This document shows, in pieces, positions 7,857 to 20,691 of a DNA stretch of 64,000 nucleotides. A program made the translations under genes and the position numbers. Location of the stretch: positions 22,680,351-22,744,350 of the forward strand of contig NC_036451.1 of NCBI RefSeq assembly GCF_002775205.1. Direction: 5' to 3'. The notes beneath the pieces are model-generated. The model saw nothing but the letters and a program-made list of their open reading frames with translations, ran no database searches and was not told the origin of the DNA. How positions within the stretch are numbered: position 1 is the first letter of the stretch; each line of letters begins with the position of its first letter. Origin of the DNA: Xiphophorus maculatus. Its lineage: Eukaryota; Chordata; Actinopteri; Cyprinodontiformes; Poeciliidae.

Positions 7857-10800
7857 ATGGAGTTTGAGGAGTCCGGTATCGGGGAGGAGTGCGGGGTTTT
7901 CGGCTGCGTGGCCGCCGGAGAGTGGCCCACCCAGCTAGAGGTGGCTCAGGTTCTCACTCTGGGACTGGTGGCGTTACAGCACAGGTAAGCGTCGTGAAGG
8001 TTTGCCTTGAGTAACGACGGATAACTTATAATTTTTTGGCTAATGGCTCTCTCTTGACTGGCTTCTCTCCAGTGTCAAGTTCAGGAGAAAATAATAATAA
8101 TAATAATGCAGGCACGGTTGCCTGAACTCTTTTGTCATGAGCTTGAGTTAACTCAAACCTGTAAACATTTCATACATTTAAAATTTACTATTACTTGCGT
8201 TGGAGTTTCTGTGTGACGTTTTGAGTCCGCTCAATATTTCTAAGTAGAAACTATGCGAAATTTGTGCTGTAAAACATTTAAAGTTACTGCTCGGACTTCT
8301 TTCTATAAAAGCCATTAAAGCCACTTTAGAATAGAATAGAATAGAATTCAACTTTATTGTCATTGCACTGTCACTAGTACAAGCAACGAGATGTAGTTTG
8401 CATCTATCCAGAAGTGCTCTACGAGATATAAATATTTATTTACAGATGTACAAGACTATGTATGTATGGACTATAAGGGGTTATAGCAAGAGATATAGAC
8501 ATTGTGTATAAATATAAATATGGGAGCTGTATGCACAGATTATACAGAATATACAGATTATACAAGAATGTTAGGGAATGGATTATATATGTATATAATA
8601 CAAGATAAATAATAACCTATATTTAGGTTTTCGCATACAGTACAACATATAAAGTTTTATTTTGCCGTGAATCGCTATTTAAGCAATGTGGAGTCTACCC
8701 TCCCAAAAACAAACTTCCAGGTGCACTTGCCTCTGGTGACATCACATAAGGCAACTGATCAGTGTTGAGCACATCTTTTCCATTTTTCTCATGTTTTTTT
8801 TTTACGGTAATCTTCACATTTATCAATTTGAAATTTATTCTACAAAAGAGTTTCCTAATTTCATGCAACAAGGTCAACATGTGTGATGTAATTCACACAA
8901 AGAAAGAAAACTGCAGGATTGGCAGGGTTTGTCTATGTTTGATAAATTAATTGATGAAATTCAGTTTTTTAAAAAAAAATGTCATAAGTTCATTTCTAAC
9001 AAGTTTCTAAGTACATCTTGGCCACTTGGTTTGGTTTAATTTCAAAAAGAAGAGAAAATAAAAATTAGCTCATGATTAACACATAAAATGTTAAAGAAAT
9101 TGTAATGACTTTTTTATTTATTTATTATACCTAAGTGACATATAACCCTTTTATGTGACAGAAACAGAAAGCCAAGGTGTGCTATGTATTGGATAAAAAA
9201 ACTCTGCTTCATAGTAAGTTTGACTTGCTGCCATTAAATTATCAGCCTGTAACGCTTGAGAAGTTGTTTTTTTTTGTGTTTTTTTACTGTAGGTGACACT
9301 GGTTTCTAACAATTACCTGTGTTTTCGGGGGTGGATTAGAGTGGGCCATGGAGCACACGGATTTGATCTTTATTATGGGAACATGCTCCTGCTCCTCTTT
9401 GCACTGTGCCTCCACCTGAGCACGGCCTGCATTCAGTAGTTTCGCTGGTTTCTGGTATGTGGAGTCTGAAAGTAAAAACATCGGCATGCTGTGATGTCAT
9501 TACTGTCCTTCAAACATAGTTTGCGTCACAGTCGACCTAATCTGGCATTGTGCGTGTCTTTTATTAGTTGTTGTTTTTTCTTTGTTGCTACAATTATATC
9601 CTCATCTTATCAGCCTCTAGCAAATCGCGGGACAGAGCCCTCGCTCATTTCGAGACATCATGGGACATGCTCAGTGATGAGAGAAAGGAGGGATTTTTAC
9701 AGACCTTGATCCACAGCTTTTCTCTTCGTTCCTCTGTTTGCTGGAAAGTTGACGTCTTTTCCCACCAGACTCTCAGAGGGGCCTGCAAACACCATGTAGC
9801 AAAAAACAGTGAGGAAGTAAACTCGACAGCTTAATCTTTTTTTTAACCTAGTTTGTTTTCATGCTTTTCAGGATATTGATACTGTGAATGTTTAAGTATG
9901 TTTGGACTACTACCTCATGCTAACATTAGCTTTATACTCAAAGTGAGCATTTTCGCTAACCTTACGATAATGAAGGTAGTAAGTTGTTAATATTAGTAAA
10001 TGGTGATGATAGAAGAGTTTAAGTTAATATTAGCATTTTTGCACATTTTAGCTTTTACACTACTGTTACTCAATTGAATATGTTACTGTAGGTTAATATG
10101 CTAGGAAAAGTCCTAATAACATTAACATTTTAGCTCATTTTGATATAAAAGCTAAACTATATGTAGTGAATGGAGTAAATCAGTGTCAGTCAGCATGCTA
10201 TTGATACCCCAAATGCTATTGACTACATTTCAGCTAAGCTTAGCATTGTAGCTTACTTTAGCATGTGCACTGTTGTCTGCATTGTACATGGATAACATCA
10301 CCGGTGGTCAACATGCTAGTTTAGGGAATACTTTAGTTAACCTTAGCATTTTAGCTAATTCTGTACATTTTCATGACATTTAACAAAGACAAACTGTTTG
10401 TTGTTTTAAACTTTTTAAGGCTTGAGTGATTAAACCCACTGAACCTAATTCTTCTTTACAATCTCAGATTCGGTTCACTTTGACAGGCCCCGTTTACATT
10501 TCTTCAGAAATTGTTTGGACTTTTACTTTGTAGACAAAAGTCCAAACCCTACGATCCTATTTTAAGGGTCAGTGTGTAGAACGCATTACTTTATTAAAGC
10601 AATGCAGTACTGACATTTTATTCTAAAACAGATAAAGATATTGAGGGTAAAGCGCTGCCTCGTGTTTATGGTTGGTTTAAGTTCCTTTTTCTTGTTTAGC
10701 TAAAGAACTAAAGGTCTGTTAATAGTATTTAGACAAATTATGACCAGCTCACTCTTTGGGTTGTGATGTTGATCCGACTGATGCTCCCTGATTTCTCGCA

Positions 10801-13800
10801 GCTTCAGATCATCAGTGTCTGTGAGTAGGCCAGAATCACTATGACAAGTTTTCTCCTCCACTGCTGCTCCTCTGCTTGACTTTGCTAAGCAAACGTCAAC
10901 CCGATAGTTTTCCTCACAGATTTGCAAGACTGGGAGTGGGCCCGAATGCGAGGCGTCAGCAGCCCCCCTGCCGCATAGCGAGCCGTTTGGGGCGTGCGTC
11001 ATGATGGCGTCCACTTCATCATAAAACCTCATGAGACGCTTCCGCTCGGCTTCATCCGTCTTGCTCCTCTGAAGGGACCGGTAGAGGTACTTGAGGTTTT
11101 TGTACTTGGTGTGGCACTGCTTCCAGTCGCGCTCAATGCCTTGCTGCATGAGCCGGTTGGAGATCTGGACGAAGATGTCCCTCTTTCTGGTCGAGCTCTC
11201 CAGCTGCTTGCACACGCGCTCGTCGGACCACACCTGGATGAGAGCTTGCACCTCCTGGTCGCTCCAGTTCCGGCCAGTGTCCGACACCGTGACCACGTGG
11301 AACTGGTCTGAGCTCGGGGAGTCTGCTTGTGTCAAATGGGCCTCTGTGGTGCAGAAGAATAGAGGTAGTAAAAATCTCTTTGATCCAGAGTTCTTGCACA
11401 TTTCGCTATGTTAAAATTTCATCATTTTTGAGGACTATTGGTCGGTTTTACCCAACTTCATTGTATAAATCAAAAATTTATGGCAGATACAAAGGGATGC
11501 TGTGAATATGGAACTGGATAATGAATGAGGCTGGATGTAGCACTGCAGCTAACAATGATTTTAGTAATTGATTAATGTTTTTTTAATTACCACTTAAGCT
11601 TATTTTATACAATATTTTAAAAAATGAAAATAAGCACCCAAATTCCTTTTTTTTAAAAACAATAGAATATACATTTTATCGCCTAAATGCAATCACAGAT
11701 TTCCTTTAGTGAACGTTTGGTCATTTGTAGGAAAGGATGCATCTGAACCAAAAAAAATACTTTAACATCAACACAACAGGGCTGATCTGTTGATTAAACC
11801 AAAAGGTTCTTAAAAGGGGATTTTATTATTTTTTTACTCAATCTGAAGTTATATATGTTAATTATGTTTTACCTCCTTCCTCTTTAAAACATATTTAGAA
11901 ACGAAAGCATTTCATCTTAAATACAAATTGTATATATTTTACAGTTTTGGCTTAACATCAGCTTTGACTCCATTCGTAGCAGAGTCTGAATACTCCAGTT
12001 AATGATCATCAATTTACTAAATTAGATGACAATTACTTCAAGAATCGAGTCATCACAATTAATCTAATTTACTGTTTCAGTCTTAGATGGATGATGGAAT
12101 GTTGTTGGATGGATAAATTGACACTGGATGGATCCATTGCATGGATTAATTAACAGACGATGGAAATGGATGAACATTGATTGATAAATGTTCAATGGAC
12201 AAACAGACAATTGATAGGCATAGATGAATACATTATGGAGAAAAATGGATGAATGAATATACAAATGAGCAAACGGTTGGATTTAGCACACAAGTAGATG
12301 TTGGATTTTGAACAAAGATGGATGGCTGTTGGGTAAATGAATGGATAAAACCTTTAGGTAATGTGAAGAGGTCAGAAATAAACATTTTCCATATGTTACA
12401 CAGTGAATGAGATTGAAACATTATATCATACCTGTGCCTCTCCATTGTGCTTCTATGTCTCCATCAATATCATAATCATCACTGTTGTCGTCTGAAAATA
12501 TAATATAGAAAAATTAATTTTCCTGAATTCAAATGTATGGTGTGTAATCCATCAGAATCGCCCACCATCTTCAATCTCAATGATGATCTCGTTGTCTGAC
12601 GTCGTGATGGATCTTGTGTTGCATGGCACCGTCTGTAGCTGGCCCACCGTCGCGTCTACGTTGTATAGTCTCTTTTGCATCTCCTCTGTCCCATTCTCCA
12701 GTCCCTGGTTGAGCAAGATGGCTTCTACCTCTTCAAAAAACTTCATATACCTTCCAGGGCCCCCGGCTCCGCTGCCCGCGGCAGCGTGGGCACTTTTCGC
12801 CGTCTTGTAGTCGTACTTCAAGTTCTTGTATTTGGTCCGACACTGCTTCCAGTTGCGCACCACTCCGAACTTCCTCTGCATCTGGCGGGCCATCTCTTGG
12901 AAGATGCACTTGTTGCGCAGCGTGCTCTTCAGGCGCTCGCGGACGCTGCGGTCGGCCCAGACGCACAGCAGCGCCCGCACCTCGTCGTCCGTCCAGTGGC
13001 GGCCGCCTTCTTCGGTCACGTTTGGCGTGAGAGGAAGACTGGGATGCATTCTAGCCTTTATTCCTACAGACACACAGGCATTTCTATCTAGGGATGAACC
13101 GATCCACTTTTTTCATTGCCTCTATCTGAGGTTTGGTTTTGGCCTATGCCTACCACTACAGAAAATTTGTGCTGAACTGACTTAAAACGTTTCTTTTTTG
13201 TAAACATAAACATATACGTATGTACTGAGTTACAAATATATTTGATAACTCTGCACCAGTACAGCACATTTAAATACAGTAATAGCCTCCCAAGCTTGGT
13301 CAAACAAGTAAAAACGGCACAACTTTGAATTTGTTCAGTCAGTACAATTAGGAGTACAGCAGCCTAATGTAAAATAAATAAAAACAATAGGTTGACTACC
13401 TTGGTCAAACATGTAAAAATAAACTGCAACAAACTTTCTTTAAAGTGCAACTAGGAATTCTAAAAAACTATGAGCAAAAAGCATAGAATTAGACTGAATA
13501 GATCAGCCCTTATATATCGAGCACATTGTCACTGATACCCGATCTAGAATTTAATAAATCAGTGCATCTCTACTTTTACATTTGTTAAAACTTTTTTTTT
13601 GAATTGGGGAAATAAGTCAGCTTTTGGAGCAAGCAGGCAAAAAAAACAAACAAACAAAACTTGTATAACATGCTTGCTCTTTAAGCAAAGCTGAACGTTT
13701 TAAGCAGTGCTACGGTTTGTGGTAACCCCAGATTTACCTTCATTCATTGGCACTGAGACTGAGGAAATGTAGATGGCCTCCACCGGCCTTCCATCCAGTC

Positions 13801-16800
13801 CCGGGGCAAAGCCGGCTGACGTGCCCGCCGCCGCGTCACCCCTCCTGCTCTGAAGTCCCAGACTCCTGCTTTTAGCCTGACACTCCCTCCAGCCGCGCGC
13901 AACGCTGAGCCGCCTCAGCCGCTCTGAAATCAACTCGAACGTGCCTCTGCTCTCTGCGCCGGGCTTAGCTCCAACCTCATCCCACACTGACACGAGAGCC
14001 AGCACCTCTGCTTCCCCCCATGGCCTCTCCGGCGAGCCGTGCTCCTCCACCACCACCTCCCCGTCTGCCCCTCTTTGTCTCTCTGTTCCTCTCTCCATGT
14101 TTCGAGCTGACCTGGAAACGTTTTCGTTTCCTCGGCCCCCCCTTTCTATCTTTTTTTTTTTTTTTTTTTTGTCTCTGCTGCCCGGTTCCCTAGGCAACCA
14201 GGCGGTTAAGCCTGAGAGCAACGCCTACGTGCTGAAAAGCAGCCTCACCACTGGCTTAAGCTGTGTGCAGAGGGGGCGGGATCAAGTGTAATCTGAGAAG
14301 CAGCTTGGTAAAATGGACTGAAACTGCAGCAAGACGACTCTCCATGAATGGCAGCTCCACAAATGAGAAGCTCCTTTGTTCTGTTTCTTTGTGTGTGTGT
14401 GTCCCCTCCTCCAGCTCTGGTTCCTCTTTTCTTCTTCATTGCTTAAATCAAACCGGTTTGAACTGCCTCAAGGCGCATTATCAGAGCTGAGTTTGTTGGA
14501 CCATGGAATCTTTTATCAGGACTCCATCTTAGCAAAATTGACGATTTTGTTTTTGTTTCCTCAGAGGTCAGGAAAGTGCTGGGATTGTCACAAGCAATGG
14601 AGCCAGTCCGCCTACATACACGAGCCACAAGGTGAACGAGTTGTTTAATTCACACACGCATCAAACGTGCCCTCAGATCACACACCTCACACCTCAACAC
14701 TTCACCCTGAATCACCTTAATGGCCGCTCCGGCCTCTCCTGGTTTGTTTTGAGGCCATTTCTCACTCGAATCATCTGATTTCAAACAATGATCCCTCTCG
14801 GCATTTCTCAGGGCATGGGATTAGTGAGCACCGCTTTTGCACCAGAGGCTCTGCTCCAACTGCGCTACGGGAACCTTGGGATCTGCCACACGCGCTACTC
14901 AACGACCGGGTTCTCGGAGCTGCAGAACTGCCAGCCCTTCGTGGTCGACACGCTGCACGGCAGGATCGCCGTGGCGCACAATGGAGAGCTGGTCAACTCC
15001 CGTGCCTTAAGGAAAAAGGTGAGGACGAGCATTATATGTTATTTGTGATTAGTATTTATGCTTCAGGCATAAATACATTTTTCTCTCTCATTTTTTTATT
15101 TATTTACTGATTTTATTCCAGCTCGATAGTTGTTTGTAGCCACTGCATTCACAGAGACTCCAGTCTGATATGAAGTTTTTAGTTTGACAACAAGCAAATT
15201 CCTCTTTACTCATAAACAATAAAGTTTATGAATGTGAACCTGCACAACCAAGGGTCTTCAATCACTCTCACGGTTTTGTTTATATCAGTCATTAAACACT
15301 GAAATTTACACAGAAGTAGTGAGTACTATTTTTATTAGTGATTTTTTTTTTTTACTTCGAACTTAAATTATCTGTTAAATTCTAGTTATAAAACATGACA
15401 TTCTTTGTGTATTGCCGTCTATAGAATGAATAGAACGAAGACTCGGCTTTATTCTATTCTATAAAGCCGAGTCTTTATAGAATAGAAAACAGCAGGATCG
15501 CCGTGGCACACAATGGAGAGCTGGTCAACTCCAGTTGACATAATCAGCATTTGTTAAAACACTGATTATGTTTTATTAATAATCAGTGGGCAGTATAATG
15601 TAAAATGAATGTTTTTGAGCTTTATGTCATGTTATATTATACGTCATCAAAACCTAAAGTGTTGTTTTGATTTCTTCATGCATTTTTGAGAAGTCTTTCA
15701 ATCTCCCATGGCAACCATTCAGCTGTGCAAATCACCTGGGTGAACCTAGCACTGCCTTCACAGATGAAGCTCCTGGGCTTTTTTTTGTATTTTTGACTTT
15801 CTGTGTCAGAGCAGCTCCGCCCCACGGCTCCCCCACTCAGCTCCTTCAGACTAGTCAGCAGCAATTAGCAGACACTGGGTGAAACTGCACATCTACTGAG
15901 CTCATTATTCGAGCCACTTCTGAGTGAAACACTGGCAAAAACGTTGTTAAAGGGTTAATAGAGGAGCCATGTTGTGATGACATCTTGGAGGCGGAGTTTC
16001 ATAAGGAGCAGGAGTTTCTTAAGGAGACAGAGGCCCAATTTCACGGCATTAAATTACAAAGTAAAATTTCTTTTAAATCTTGTTTTATATATGTAGCATT
16101 TTTATAACAACTGAAGGTAACATACTTGATTGTGATTCTATGTACCTGAAAAATATATAATACTGCCCCTTTAACGCCTATCAGAACAGCAGCTTTGAGC
16201 ACGTTTTGCGTCTAATGCTCCTAGCCTTAACTTGTGGTGCAGGTAATGCGCCATGGAGTCGGTCTCTCCACCGGCTCAGACAGCGAGCTCATCACCCAGC
16301 TGCTGGCGCTGACTCCGCCCATGGAGGAGCTGGACACCCCTGACTGGGTTGCCAGGTGACTACCAACTCTGGACGCTGCGAAAATGCACCTCCTCGCATT
16401 ATTTCTTTACCTAATTTTTAGTTTCCTTCTACTGCAGAATTAAAAACCTCATGACAGAAACACCCACCTCTTATTCGCTGCTAATCATGTTCAAAGATGT
16501 CATCTACGCGGTGCGTGACCCGTACGGGAACCGGCCCCTATCCATAGGAAGGCTTGTTCCCATCTCTAGGCTCCACAGTCCAGGTATTTGCTGTTTAATT
16601 TTCACTTGTTTAGAATATTACTCTAATTGTGTTGTGAAACTAGGAGAAGTGAAAGTTTAGTCCAGGCTGATGGGAAACCAGATGAAGATCTCTAATAAAG
16701 ACATTGGATCCGCATTTCATTCCTGGTGTCCACGATTTTCCCCTCTGAACTCATTTTCTTACAAACAGGGAGCCTCACAAGAGGCTCAGCTCCCTGGGAT

Positions 16801-19754
16801 ATGATTTTGTCAGAGGTCAGATCGCTGCTAGTGGATGATTAACGTGACTCTTTGCTCCCTGGTTAGGTGCAGGAGAAGAGGACACTGAGGGATGGGTTGT
16901 GTCATCAGAGTCCTGCAGCTTCCAGTCCATCGGAGCAAAGTAATCTTTGTTGCTTTTAATGTTTCTCCACATGTCCATAACTCTAGTCTGTATTAGTTTC
17001 TAACATTGCCACGTCCATCTCAGGTATTACAGGGAGGTCTTACCAGGAGAAATAGTTCAGATATCCAGGTTTGGAGTGAAATCTCTAAGCGTCATTCCTC
17101 GCCCTGAAGGAGACCTGCCCGCCTTCTGCATCTTTGAATACGTTTATTTTGCCAGACCAGACTCCATTTTTGAAGGTATGAATATTTCTGTATTAATCAT
17201 TAAGCCGCATATAATTGCATAAATTGGAAGAAGACAGGAAGTGGTAGGAAGATGATGATGCGGTATGTTTTTTTTTTTTAATGACCTATTGCGTGAACAA
17301 ACTTATTCATGTGATTTTAATTGCGTTTTCAATGGAAACGTCGCAATTGCGAAATTGAGTTTTGTCAACATTAGCGGAATATCGAAAACCTTTTGCGCAC
17401 ATTTGTAATGAAAACGCAGCCGCTGTATAGTGACCGGACATTACCGCACCGCAGGGCAGATGGTGTATACCGTGAGGCAGCGCTGCGGCCGCCAGTTAGC
17501 CATCGAAGCTCCGACAGACGTAGACCTGGTCAGCACGGTGCCGGAGTCCGCCACCCCTGCTGCTCTGGGCTACGCTCAGCAGGTCAGTCCTCTACTCATC
17601 TGCTCAAAGATGGAAAAACGTCAACACTCACAATAACATTTCCCTGTCGTCCTTCTCCCAGTCTGGCCTCCCGTACACGGAGGTTCTGTGCAAGAACCGC
17701 TACGTGGGAAGAACGTTTATTCAGCCAAATACCCGCCTGAGGCAGTTGGGAGTGGCCAAGAAGTTTGGGGTGCTGACCGACAACTTCGCAGGGAAACGAG
17801 TGGTGCTTATTGATGACTCCATCGTCAGGGGCAACACCATCTCCCCCATCATCAAGCTGCTGCGGGAAGCTGGAGCGACAGAGGTTGGTTTCCTGTAGTT
17901 GGAGAAACTTTTAGGGTGTGATGCAGATTAGTGCAGGGGTCCCTAAAGTGGGTCCTCGAGGGCCGGCATCCTGCATGTTTTAGTTCTCTCTGGTTTAACG
18001 CACCTGGATCCAATGACGGTTCGTTAGAAGGCCTAAGAAGAGCACTGACCTGCTGAAAAGGTTGTTGGTACCACCAGGGAGAGAACTAAAACGTGCAGGT
18101 GCCGGCCCTCAAGGGCCGACTTTGGGCACCCCTGGGTTATAGTGTTTGTTTAGTTTTTATTCTATTTATTTTGGTCTGACATTTGCAGCTAATGCTAGCT
18201 CTGTGGAGATGTATGCAGTGAAGTGTTACCAGCTTGTCTCTATTATTGTAGTTTCTATTTGTTTTATTGACGCTCTCTTTTTAAGACCTTTTTAAAGTTG
18301 TGAAATAAATAAATAAAATATAATAAAATGACATAAGCAAGTTAAAGTGTGGATATTTTTATCCACATTTTTGTTTTTTAGCTCAGTATGATGTTAGTGC
18401 TTTTATACTTGTGTTGTAAACAATTTTAAGGTAAATAAACTTTGCTAAATACACACCTGACAAAGGCAGCTGATATCTTGATGATTGCAAAGAATAGTTT
18501 TCTTTAATTCCCTAAAGAAACTACAATAAGCCAATAATTGAAGACATTTTAAATGTCTAAATCTGAACTCACTGAATTTAAGTGTGAAGACCCTCTGTTT
18601 CTCTACTGCCATCGCTGGCTATGCTAACCAGCCTAGCATTCACAACAGGATCTGCTGATGGGAAAGGCTGTAGCAGTGCCACAGGAGAAGAAATTTGTTC
18701 AATTCCACTAAAATCACACAAATTGATCTCTGTTTTAAAAGAAGGCAATTTTTTTTTTTTTTACCCTTTCTGTGCAGTCAGTCTGAGACATGACGTCTCA
18801 TTCTATAGACGGCAATACACAAAGAATGTCATGTTTTATAACTAGAATTTAACAGATAATTTAAGTTCGAAGTAAAAAAAAAATCACTAATAAAAATAGT
18901 ACTCACTACTTTTGTGTAAACTTCAGTGTTTAATGCTTGATATAAACAAAACCGTGAGAGTGATTGAAGACCCTTGGTTGTGCAGGTTCACATCAGGGTG
19001 GCGTCTCCACCCATCAAGTTCCCCTGCTACATGGGCATCAACATCCCAACCAAAGAGGAGCTCATCGCCAACAAGCCAGAGTTTAAGGACATTGCTGGTT
19101 ATATTGGTAAGGCTTTATATACAGTACAGACCAAAAGTTTGGACACACCTTCTAATTCAATGGGTTTTCTTTATTTTCATGACTATTTATAAGGCAAGAA
19201 ATCCCACTTATTAACCTGACAGGGCAGGTTGACCTATGAAGTGAAAACCATTTCAGGTGACAACCTCTTGAAGCTCATCAAGAAAATGCAGAGTGTGTGC
19301 AAAGCAGTAATCACAGCAAAAGGTTGCTACTTTGAAGAAACTAGAATATAAGGGGTATTTTCAGTTGTTTTACACTTTTTTGTTTAGTGCATATTTCCAC
19401 ATGTGTTATTCATAGTTTTGATGCCTTCAGTGTGAATCTACAATGTCAATAGTCATGAAAATAAAGGAAACTCATTGAATTAAAAGGTGTGTCCAAACTT
19501 TTGGTCTGTACTATATATACGGTATATGTTTGTTTTTAAACAATACATGAACATGTTTAAATGTTTGTCTCTGCTTGTGCTCGTTCTGCTGCTCAGGCGC
19601 CGACAGCGTCGAGTATCTGACCGTGGAGGGACTCGTCTCTGCTGTCCAGGAGGGAATCTCCTCCTTCCAGAAGGAGAATGTCAGCTCCTACAAGGAAGTA
19701 GGCCACTGTACCGCCTGTCTAACTGGGAAATATCCAGTAGAACTCGAGTGGTAA
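7857..19754 (+). CDS. ppat: Amidophosphoribosyltransferase (PPAT), eleven exons
   Basis: PPAT catalyses the committed first step of purine synthesis in the cytosol: PRPP plus glutamine gives phosphoribosylamine. Exons are 7857-7984, 14565-14631, 14812-15018, 16243-16355, 16438-16583, 16867-16939, 17024-17175, 17455-17582, 17662-17883, 18986-19106 and 19597-19754. All frames join, giving 504 aa (human 517). After an 11-residue propeptide comes Cys12 of EECGVFGC, the glutaminase nucleophile once exposed. HTRYSTTG and AHNGELVN are glutaminase motifs. [13 protein letters not shown] (about residues 385-397) is the PRPP-binding loop. Cysteines in VRQRCG, FPCYMGI and the terminal CTACLTG correspond to the 4Fe-4S ligands. 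Intron 1 (about 6.6 kb) hosts an antisense gene. Introns 3 and 9 carry a long inverted repeat, and introns 9 and 10 carry MITEs. Confidence 0.97.
8326..8590. repeat. Dispersed retroposon-like repeat with AGAAT units
   Basis: Several AGAAT units (8330-8346) are followed by an AT-rich segment containing CTTTATTGTCATTGCACTG, which I know as common interspersed fish sequence. The class (LINE 3' end or SINE) is uncertain. It lies in ppat intron 1. Confidence 0.45.
9113..9126 (-). terminator. Polyadenylation signals of the nested Myb/SANT gene
   Basis: Overlapping AATAAA hexamers on the minus strand begin about 25 bases after the predicted stop at 9151. This supports 9151-9246 as the terminal exon. 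Confidence 0.55.
9151..14098 (-). CDS. Triple Myb/SANT-like domain protein, nested antisense in ppat intron 1
   Basis: I cannot name this gene; it is probably a nuclear DNA-binding protein. Exons on the minus strand are 13738-14098, 12566-13063, 12432-12491, 10753-11343, 9705-9782, 9317-9465 and 9151-9246. Every junction keeps frame, giving 610 aa. Three copies of a trihelix-type Myb/SANT-like domain (as in ZSCAN20/29 and MSANTD proteins) lie at about 25-88, 142-245 and 331-425. Copies 2 and 3 share W(T/S)(D)xEVxALxxVW, DWKQC or [13 protein letters not shown] and FYDEVDAI or FFEEVEAI. Copy 1 is weaker ([27 protein letters not shown]). No SCAN or zinc-finger domain is visible. Acidic [14 protein letters not shown] lies between copies 2 and 3. 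The ATG at 14098 has a good AACATGG context. If the donor at 10752 is skipped, exon 4 reads on to a stop at 10700, giving a 520-aa form. The last three exons rest on splice signals and frame alone and are less certain. Confidence 0.75.
9900..10375. repeat. Degenerate GCTAA/TTAGC repeat tract
   Basis: Words such as TTAGCATTTTAGCT, GCTAACATTAGC and their complements recur about every 40-60 bases (near 9918, 9947, 10031, 10053, 10130, 10233 and 10345). It resembles an old decayed tandem or inverted repeat cluster in ppat intron 1, upstream of exon 5 of the antisense gene. Class unknown. Confidence 0.45.
11530..12060. repeat. Decayed hAT-type MITE-like sequence
   Basis: CACTGCAGCTAACAATGATT followed by TTAGTAATTGATTAATG resembles the CTGCAACTAACGATTATTTT terminal sequence of the clearer element at 28398-28814, but the second end is poorly preserved. 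Short GATG/GGAT-rich simple sequence follows to about 12350. Confidence 0.35.
13089..13572. mobile_element. hAT-like MITE in an intron of the nested gene
   Basis: The segment begins TAGGGATGAACCGATCC and ends AGTGCATCTCTA, imperfect inverted ends of a type I recall from fish hAT-derived MITEs (GGATGCACCGAT). The interior is AT-rich without coding capacity. I see no clean 8-bp target duplication. Confidence 0.5.
15232..15429. repeat. Inverted copy of the ppat intron 9/exon 10 boundary, in intron 3
   Basis: These 198 bases are the reverse complement of 18798-18993, with four substitutions and a 2-base difference in a T run (about 98% identity by eye). The copied piece includes the exon 10 acceptor and the first 8 bases of exon 10. 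No target duplication or transposon end is visible, so a rearrangement is likelier than transposition. Confidence 0.93.
15438..15475. repeat. Perfect 14-bp hairpin between the rearranged segments
   Basis: AAGACTCGGCTTTA (15438-15451) and its exact complement (15462-15475) flank a 10-base loop. The hairpin lies between the inverted copy of the intron 9/exon 10 boundary and the stray copy of exon 3. Confidence 0.85.
15492..15532 (+). pseudogene. 41-bp stray copy of ppat exon 3 inside intron 3
   Basis: These bases match 14960-15000 of exon 3 (encoding [13 protein letters not shown]) with a single G-to-A change. No splice sites flank them. The right edge continues into AGTTGAC, which pairs back with GTCAACT inside the copy, and a further hairpin (CATAATCAG...CTGATTATG) follows. 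This is a fragment, not an alternative exon. Confidence 0.9.
15690..16170 (+). repeat. Dispersed repeat, related to 48430-48835
   Basis: AGCTCCTTCAGACTAG, CAGCAATTAGCA and CTGAGCTCATTA occur in the same order as in the reverse complement of 48430-48610, and both copies continue into AAAGGGTTAATAGAGG and CCATGTT. This marks a moderately diverged interspersed family. It ends near TACTGCCCCTTTAA. Confidence 0.65.
17934..18134. mobile_element. hAT-like MITE in ppat intron 9
   Basis: Long inverted ends of about 60 bp begin CAGGGGTCCCTAAAGT and end GACTTTGGGCACCCCTG, with GAGGGCCGGCA and TTTAGTTCTCTC in both arms. The flanking octamers GATTAGTG and GGTTATAG are only partly alike, so the target duplication is decayed. 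This family is common in teleosts. Confidence 0.75.
18798..18993. repeat. Partner arm of the ppat inverted repeat, overlapping the exon 10 acceptor
   Basis: This native segment (end of intron 9 plus 8 bases of exon 10) is complementary to 15232-15429. In the ppat transcript the two arms could pair and loop out exons 4-9. Confidence 0.93.
19123..19512. mobile_element. Tc1/mariner-like MITE in ppat intron 10
   Basis: Terminal inverted repeats start AGTACAGACCAAAAGTTTGG and end with the exact complement, in a TA-rich context (TATAC.../...TATA). The interior is non-coding. The sequence is familiar as a high-copy fish element; the superfamily is inferred from the TA context. Confidence 0.7.
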
Positions 19755-20281
19755 CTGGGACAGTAGCAGCAGCTGCATAGTGGAGGGACTCAGTCCTGCC
19801 ATCTGAAGTAAAGAAACTGTTCCACAACTATGGTGCAGGCATTTCTGCAGTCTCTGCTCGCAACTTTAAACTGTTTAAAAATCGTCACCTTCCTAAAATA
19901 ATGGTCTAAGTAATTTTTTGCGAAGTGATTTCTTTTTTTTTTTTTTCTAAATCATCTTTTGGTTAAAAAAAAAAAAGACTCACCACTATTTTAGGAAGGC
20001 GACAAAATGCTGCTTTTGGTTGAGCTTTACACTACTTTTTTTCCTAAATCAATGGATGTGTGATTAATTTTCTAAGCACACTAATAACTATGTATATTTG
20101 TTTCCTTTGTATGTTTAAACATCAAATGTGTTTAGAAAAAAACTTTGTATTCCAAGCATTTTCATATCAGAACATTAAAATGTGCAAGAAACACAACTGG
20201 AGACCAAAAATATTAAACTCTTACCCAATGTCTTTAAATTGAATTTATTCTTTTTGCCAAGTTGATATTTTATGAAACTTT

Positions 20282-20287
20282 AATAAA
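20282..20287 (+). terminator. Candidate polyadenylation signal of ppat
   Basis: AATAAAGGC lies about 530 bases after the ppat stop and is the first canonical hexamer on the plus strand there. Confidence 0.5.
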
Positions 20288-20691
20288 GGCAAAGATAAAA
20301 ACAAGTACAATGAGATTAACAATATATGCTTTATATGTAATAATCAATTAGCAATAAGGATTCAGAACGCTTTAGATTCAGCTATGATCCAACAAGAACA
20401 GACTGCTATAAAAGCCACACTACATCCACTCTAAAACGGCTCTTCTGCACAGGACCAACTGTAGTTACTTGTTCATCTCGATTTATCTCCAGTTTCTGTT
20501 GAAAAAGCAAAGCTGGTGATTAAAGATGTAAAGATGAAGGAAAAGCTGAACATCTGCAAAGGACTAAAGTCACCTGGGAGAGAAACCATCACATGCATCA
20601 TTCTCAAGTCGACCTGTTGAGAGGCAGAAAAAGTGATTTCAACACTTACAGGTGCATCACAGTTTAGAGAACCAAGTGAATCTGTTGGTTA

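Follow-up and report, generated by a model that had tools for sequence, protein, structure and literature searches.

A near-identical inverted repeat joining introns 3 and 9 of Xiphophorus maculatus ppat, likely a templated insertion copied from within the gene

In a 64,000 nt window of the Xiphophorus maculatus genome (the whole stretch of DNA analysed), the third intron of ppat carries a patchwork of copied segments that we consider likely to be a templated insertion, with the intron 9/exon 10 border and exon 3 serving as templates in a series of template switches. Its largest part, arm 1 (15232..15429, minus strand), appears to be a derived, inverted copy of the end of intron 9 together with the first 8 nt of exon 10 (arm 2, 18798..18993, plus strand; the likely donor). 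All donors that were found, as well as the recipient, lie within ppat. The repeat is real and apparently unique, and templated insertion, a type of mechanism that is already known, explains it well. It would represent a young-looking example of an intronic inverted repeat that came from gene-internal template switching instead of mobile elements.

The ppat gene model comprises 11 exons encoding 504 aa, with GT-AG at all 10 introns; four exon combinations kept the frame open, and the model chosen is the only one of them with GT-AG throughout. Its product matches the PurF model at 427 bits and the PDB amidophosphoribosyltransferase 9q0n at 843 bits, and an 81-aa piece across the exon 9/10/11 joins aligns ungapped to PDB amidophosphoribosyltransferase over 79 residues. 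Intron 3 occupies 15019-16242, intron 9 occupies 17884-18985, and exon 10 (121 nt, plus strand) extends over 18986..19106 behind an acceptor AG at 18984-18985, as placed by gene model and protein alignment. A sequence-only reading had located the arms in introns 3 and 9, flanking exons 4-9, with the exon 10 acceptor inside the repeat, and the 11-exon model bears this out: the AG falls in arm 2, which enters exon 10 by 8 nt. The segment that the arms would loop out (16243..17883, plus strand) contains exons 4-9, 834 nt in total, in phase 0 at both ends and with no stop in frame 0. Elsewhere in the gene, intron 10 holds a 72-bp inverted pair (19116-19187 and 19448-19519, 94%) that, by its sequence, resembles the two termini of a small transposon, and the minus strand of intron 1 has three open frames (10700-11410, 12552-13112 and 13700-14224), the first two of which we take to resemble MADF/SANT-type DNA-binding proteins.

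Local alignment of arm 1 with the reverse complement of arm 2 gives 192 identities in 198 columns, the differences being four substitutions and one 2-nt gap in a T-run; BLASTN confined to the window reports the same pair at 97.0% (E 9e-90). The near-identical repeat of about 196 bp, with four substitutions and a T-run difference, that had been claimed at the outset is thus confirmed, while the accompanying description of a long perfect duplex needs correction, as it consists of a perfect block of 86 nt and a block of 120 nt at 97%. The divergence of ~2% between arms suggests a recent event, with the proviso that gene conversion could keep them alike. All four substitutions fall within the 26 columns of 15288-15313 (chance 0.007), where a short palindrome (TCAGT...ACTGA, by eye) is formed by the arm 1 variant; this cluster, which would take a relative to polarise, may reflect an additional small template switch or patchy conversion. 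One assembly was examined, and chimeric reads can yield long inverted copies, but an artefact of fold-back or chimeric reads is highly improbable here: the arms stand 3.4 kb apart, they differ by four substitutions and an indel, and arm 1 runs on into hairpins and a copy of exon 3 that differs from its source at CpG sites.

These hairpins and the exon 3 copy, which indicate the probable origin of arm 1, were overlooked in the sequence-only reading. Beginning 8 nt past arm 1 are two overlapping hairpins with perfect 15-bp arms, one at 15438..15475 with an 8-nt loop and the other at 15452..15487 with a 6-nt loop. The DNA fold of 15420-15600 has a z of -6.4, and 0 of 200 shuffles were as stable. 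A survey of 264 kb (the window plus 200 kb upstream, including 5,000 N) for hairpins with arms of at least 14 and loops of 3-30, low-complexity arms being dropped, returned 16, these two among them, of which at least three are AT microsatellites. Next comes a direct, plus-strand copy of part of exon 3 (15489..15535), 47 nt long and identical at 44 of 47 positions to its donor at 14957..15003 (plus strand). Each of its three differences lies at one of the five CpGs of the source, and two are changes of CpG to CpA, which would be as expected for an unconstrained copy. Its divergence (3/47) and that of the arms (4/196) are not significantly different (Fisher p 0.13), which allows for a single event. 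Besides the query itself, a genome search with 15415-15600 returned its source in exon 3 and the palindrome within the query, and nothing further; no donor for the short segment that separates arm 1 from the hairpin loops was found, either among exact matches of at least 12 nt in the window or in the genome search.

Beyond the exon 3 copy, further quasi-palindromes seen by eye at 15540..15587 (ATAATCAG, CTGATTAT and ATAATCAGT) reach the altered left end of a dispersed repeat, and could be part of the arm 1 event or older. This dispersed repeat (15585-16174, starting at ~15585-15588) has ends like TTAAAGGGGCAGT...ACTGCCCCTTTAA, and the neighbouring 264 kb contain other, diverged copies of it. 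Its left end here reads TTAATAATCAGTGGGCAGT, whereas most of the six other copies with printed left ends start like TTAAAGGGGCAGT; perhaps a small palindromic change altered it.

Arm 1 is best explained as the copy because arm 2 spans an intron/exon border and its 8 coding nt belong to a stretch that aligns ungapped to the PDB amidophosphoribosyltransferase; the intron 9/exon 10 region is taken as the donor because the real exon border is there. During break repair or at a stalled fork in intron 3, a growing strand would have copied ~196 nt of that border as an inverted segment; at least two fold-backs would then have given the overlapping hairpins, and a direct copy of 47 nt from exon 3 would have followed before the strand rejoined, for an insertion of roughly 300 bp. 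The by-product would be a near-perfect inverted repeat between two introns, able to pair in the pre-mRNA and to cover the exon 10 acceptor. Nearby donors account for both arm 1 (192/198) and the exon 3 piece (44/47), and two donors together with two overlapping hairpins are found within 15232-15535, consistent with serial template switching among several templates and fold-backs. We infer that they arose together, as we do the order and direction of events and the repair pathway; the hairpins and the exon 3 copy may instead have arisen separately. Microhomology at the left junction of arm 1 amounts to at most about 1 nt (by eye), which is not clear microhomology, and one short piece lacks a donor. 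The pathway may have been MMBIR-like or end joining with filler. Insertions made by polymerase theta end joining are usually short; 198 nt exceeds them.

The heptamer TGTGCAG stands at 18771-18777 and again at 18979-18985, 208 nt apart; the first copy belongs to a strong acceptor-like site, the second to the real acceptor of exon 10, and the pair is possibly an old duplication at the acceptor. It would also suit a history in which arm 2 is the younger element, the old intron having ended in a T-run and CTGTGCAG (18777), 208 bp having arrived with the TGTGCAG repeat, and arm 1 having been copied later; that the upstream heptamer has the stronger pyrimidine tract agrees with this. We nevertheless think such a history, or a flow of sequence from intron 3 to intron 9, unlikely: a 7-mer near acceptors recurs easily given their common consensus, no source of the 208 bp was found except arm 1, and flow from intron 3 to intron 9 requires that the first 8 nt of exon 10 were already present in intron 3.

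The templated-insertion reading is also preferred to an origin in mobile elements. Mobile elements often account for near-identical inverted pairs in introns, and dispersed repeats do lie nearby in introns 3 and 9 (15585-16174 and 18600-18692). That a single mobile element inserted twice, in opposite orientations, is nonetheless barely credible here, given that the arm query finds two places only, the shared block enters coding exon 10, and neither terminal repeats nor target duplications were seen by eye at the block ends. The search covered the 704-Mb genome and returned the arms themselves and no other place; it skips very common words, so that absence of more copies is not proof. In lieu of the multiple copies expected of a mobile element there were these two, and that origin was set aside. 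Neither the dispersed repeat (15585-16174) nor the 18600-18692 fragment overlaps the arms; among 40 scored of 158 candidates for the fragment, no other row continued past 18692.

Within the same 264 kb, no inverted pair but the arms reaches both 100 nt and 95% identity at a distance of at most 10 kb; two pairs qualify at 90% identity, and a longer inverted pair extends over 2,087 columns that are 86% alike. Inverted matches at E 0.001 or better in 7857-20300 comprise six listed pairs, among which only the arms join different ppat introns. A 25-nt, 76% inverted match that links intron 5 to sequence beyond the end of ppat is at chance level. A literature search for the ppat locus found no paper among the matches listed, as judged from titles and abstract openings.

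Folding of the ppat pre-mRNA, proposed in the sequence-only reading, pairs the arms as anticipated: in the MFE fold of 15019-19007, 192 of the 198 bases of arm 1 are paired with arm 2 and the exon 10 acceptor is covered. The arm-arm duplex is predicted at about -311 kcal/mol, and the fold energy of -1437 kcal/mol compares with -1214 kcal/mol when spans above 3,300 nt are forbidden, a cost of ~223 kcal/mol. Exons 4-9 therefore have complementary sequences in both flanking introns, as sought in a circular-RNA locus. For 18962-18990 the mean unpaired probability is 0.32 on its own, 0.0005 once a 500-nt piece of intron 3 carrying arm 1 is supplied, and 0.26 with a control piece. The real exon 10 AG is, however, mostly paired even without arm 1 (predicted unpaired 0.03 and 0.02), so that the further masking contributed by arm 1 may be smaller than it seems. 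All of these values describe equilibrium folds, in which co-transcriptional splicing and proteins are ignored.

Just upstream of arm 2, 20 nt outside the duplex, an acceptor-like site on the plus strand (18749..18777, T-run ... CTGTGCAG) shares TGTGCAG with the real acceptor and has the top score in intron 9. On a rough frequency matrix, not MaxEnt, it scores 10.3, above all ten ppat acceptors, versus 0.2 for that of exon 10, which ranks ninth of ten. With the arm piece, mean unpaired probability over 18745-18779 rises from 0.33 to 0.44, but the G of the 18777 AG is mostly paired, its unpaired probability dropping from 0.26 to 0.02, so that the fold model does not show the 18777 site left free. 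Use of 18777 would add 208 nt, starting Ser-Val-stop; as a prediction from sequence, this exon extension would compete with exon 10 skipping, and the site is absent from the sequence-only reading. Skipping of exon 10 (121 nt) would shift the frame, whereas the frame would be kept both when exon 3 is joined to exon 10 and in the 834-nt circle of exons 4-9.

Whether such outcomes are what has kept the repeat in place is a separate matter. A functional regulatory duplex, maintained for a circular RNA of exons 4-9 or for control of exon 10 through a poison extension from 18777, would find agreement in the singularity of the arms among inverted matches between ppat introns (six pairs listed), in the stop-free, phase-0 frame of exons 4-9, in the near-complete closure of 18962-18990 by arm 1 relative to the control, and in the ranking of the real acceptor below 18777. 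We regard it as quite improbable, however: both the real AG, even without arm 1, and the G at 18777 are predicted to be mostly paired, the open frame of exons 4-9 follows from exon phases, and the arms lie at some distance from the exons to be joined (arm 1 is 813 nt before exon 4, arm 2 is 914 nt after exon 9). Very unlikely, too, is the bolder proposal that a single copying error created an in-transcript antisense to an acceptor, so that the weak exon 10 acceptor is masked, splicing shifts to 18777 with its stop-bearing 208-nt extension, and exons 4-9 form a circle with an endless frame, amounting to a new RNA-level throttle on a purine-synthesis enzyme. Were the acceptor truly masked, an error of DNA copying would be tied directly to new splicing control.

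The ppat gene is presumably essential, and selection would act against any allele in which exon 10 splicing was severely impaired, which presumably disfavours a large effect of the arms on the RNA. The templated insertion most likely has a small consequence in the modelled transcript: partial pairing, A-to-I editing, and low-level back-splicing of exons 4-9 or mis-splicing of exon 10, the latter conceivably as use of the upstream acceptor at 18777, skipping of exon 10, or exon 3-to-10 joining. The corresponding RNA predictions are a back-splice of exon 9 to exon 4, a junction at 18777, and editing in both arms.

In its potential for pairing, the ppat repeat resembles the inverted Alu pairs that favour back-splicing, with complementary sequences in exon-flanking introns; PMC8391333 describes flanking complementary introns and effects of ADAR1 on circular RNA. 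It departs from the Alu pairs described there in that the ppat copy is apparently unique and not a transposon, one arm holds the downstream acceptor, and its circular RNA is a prediction. In its probable origin, the arm 1 patchwork is like templated insertions from a published study in its inverted copying from nearby DNA, its several templates and its complex junction. That study searched for inverted templates within 100 bp, whereas the ppat donor lies 3.4 kb off, the copy is ~200 nt long, and microhomology at the left junction is not clear. Short-range template switch mutations, as presented in PMC7954356 and PMC8794818, can likewise generate a hairpin or an inverted copy by a single event, and the overlapping 15-bp hairpins beside arm 1 would be their counterpart here; the switches in PMC7954356 are modelled within about 100 nt, and beside them the ppat arm would be a longer-range event.
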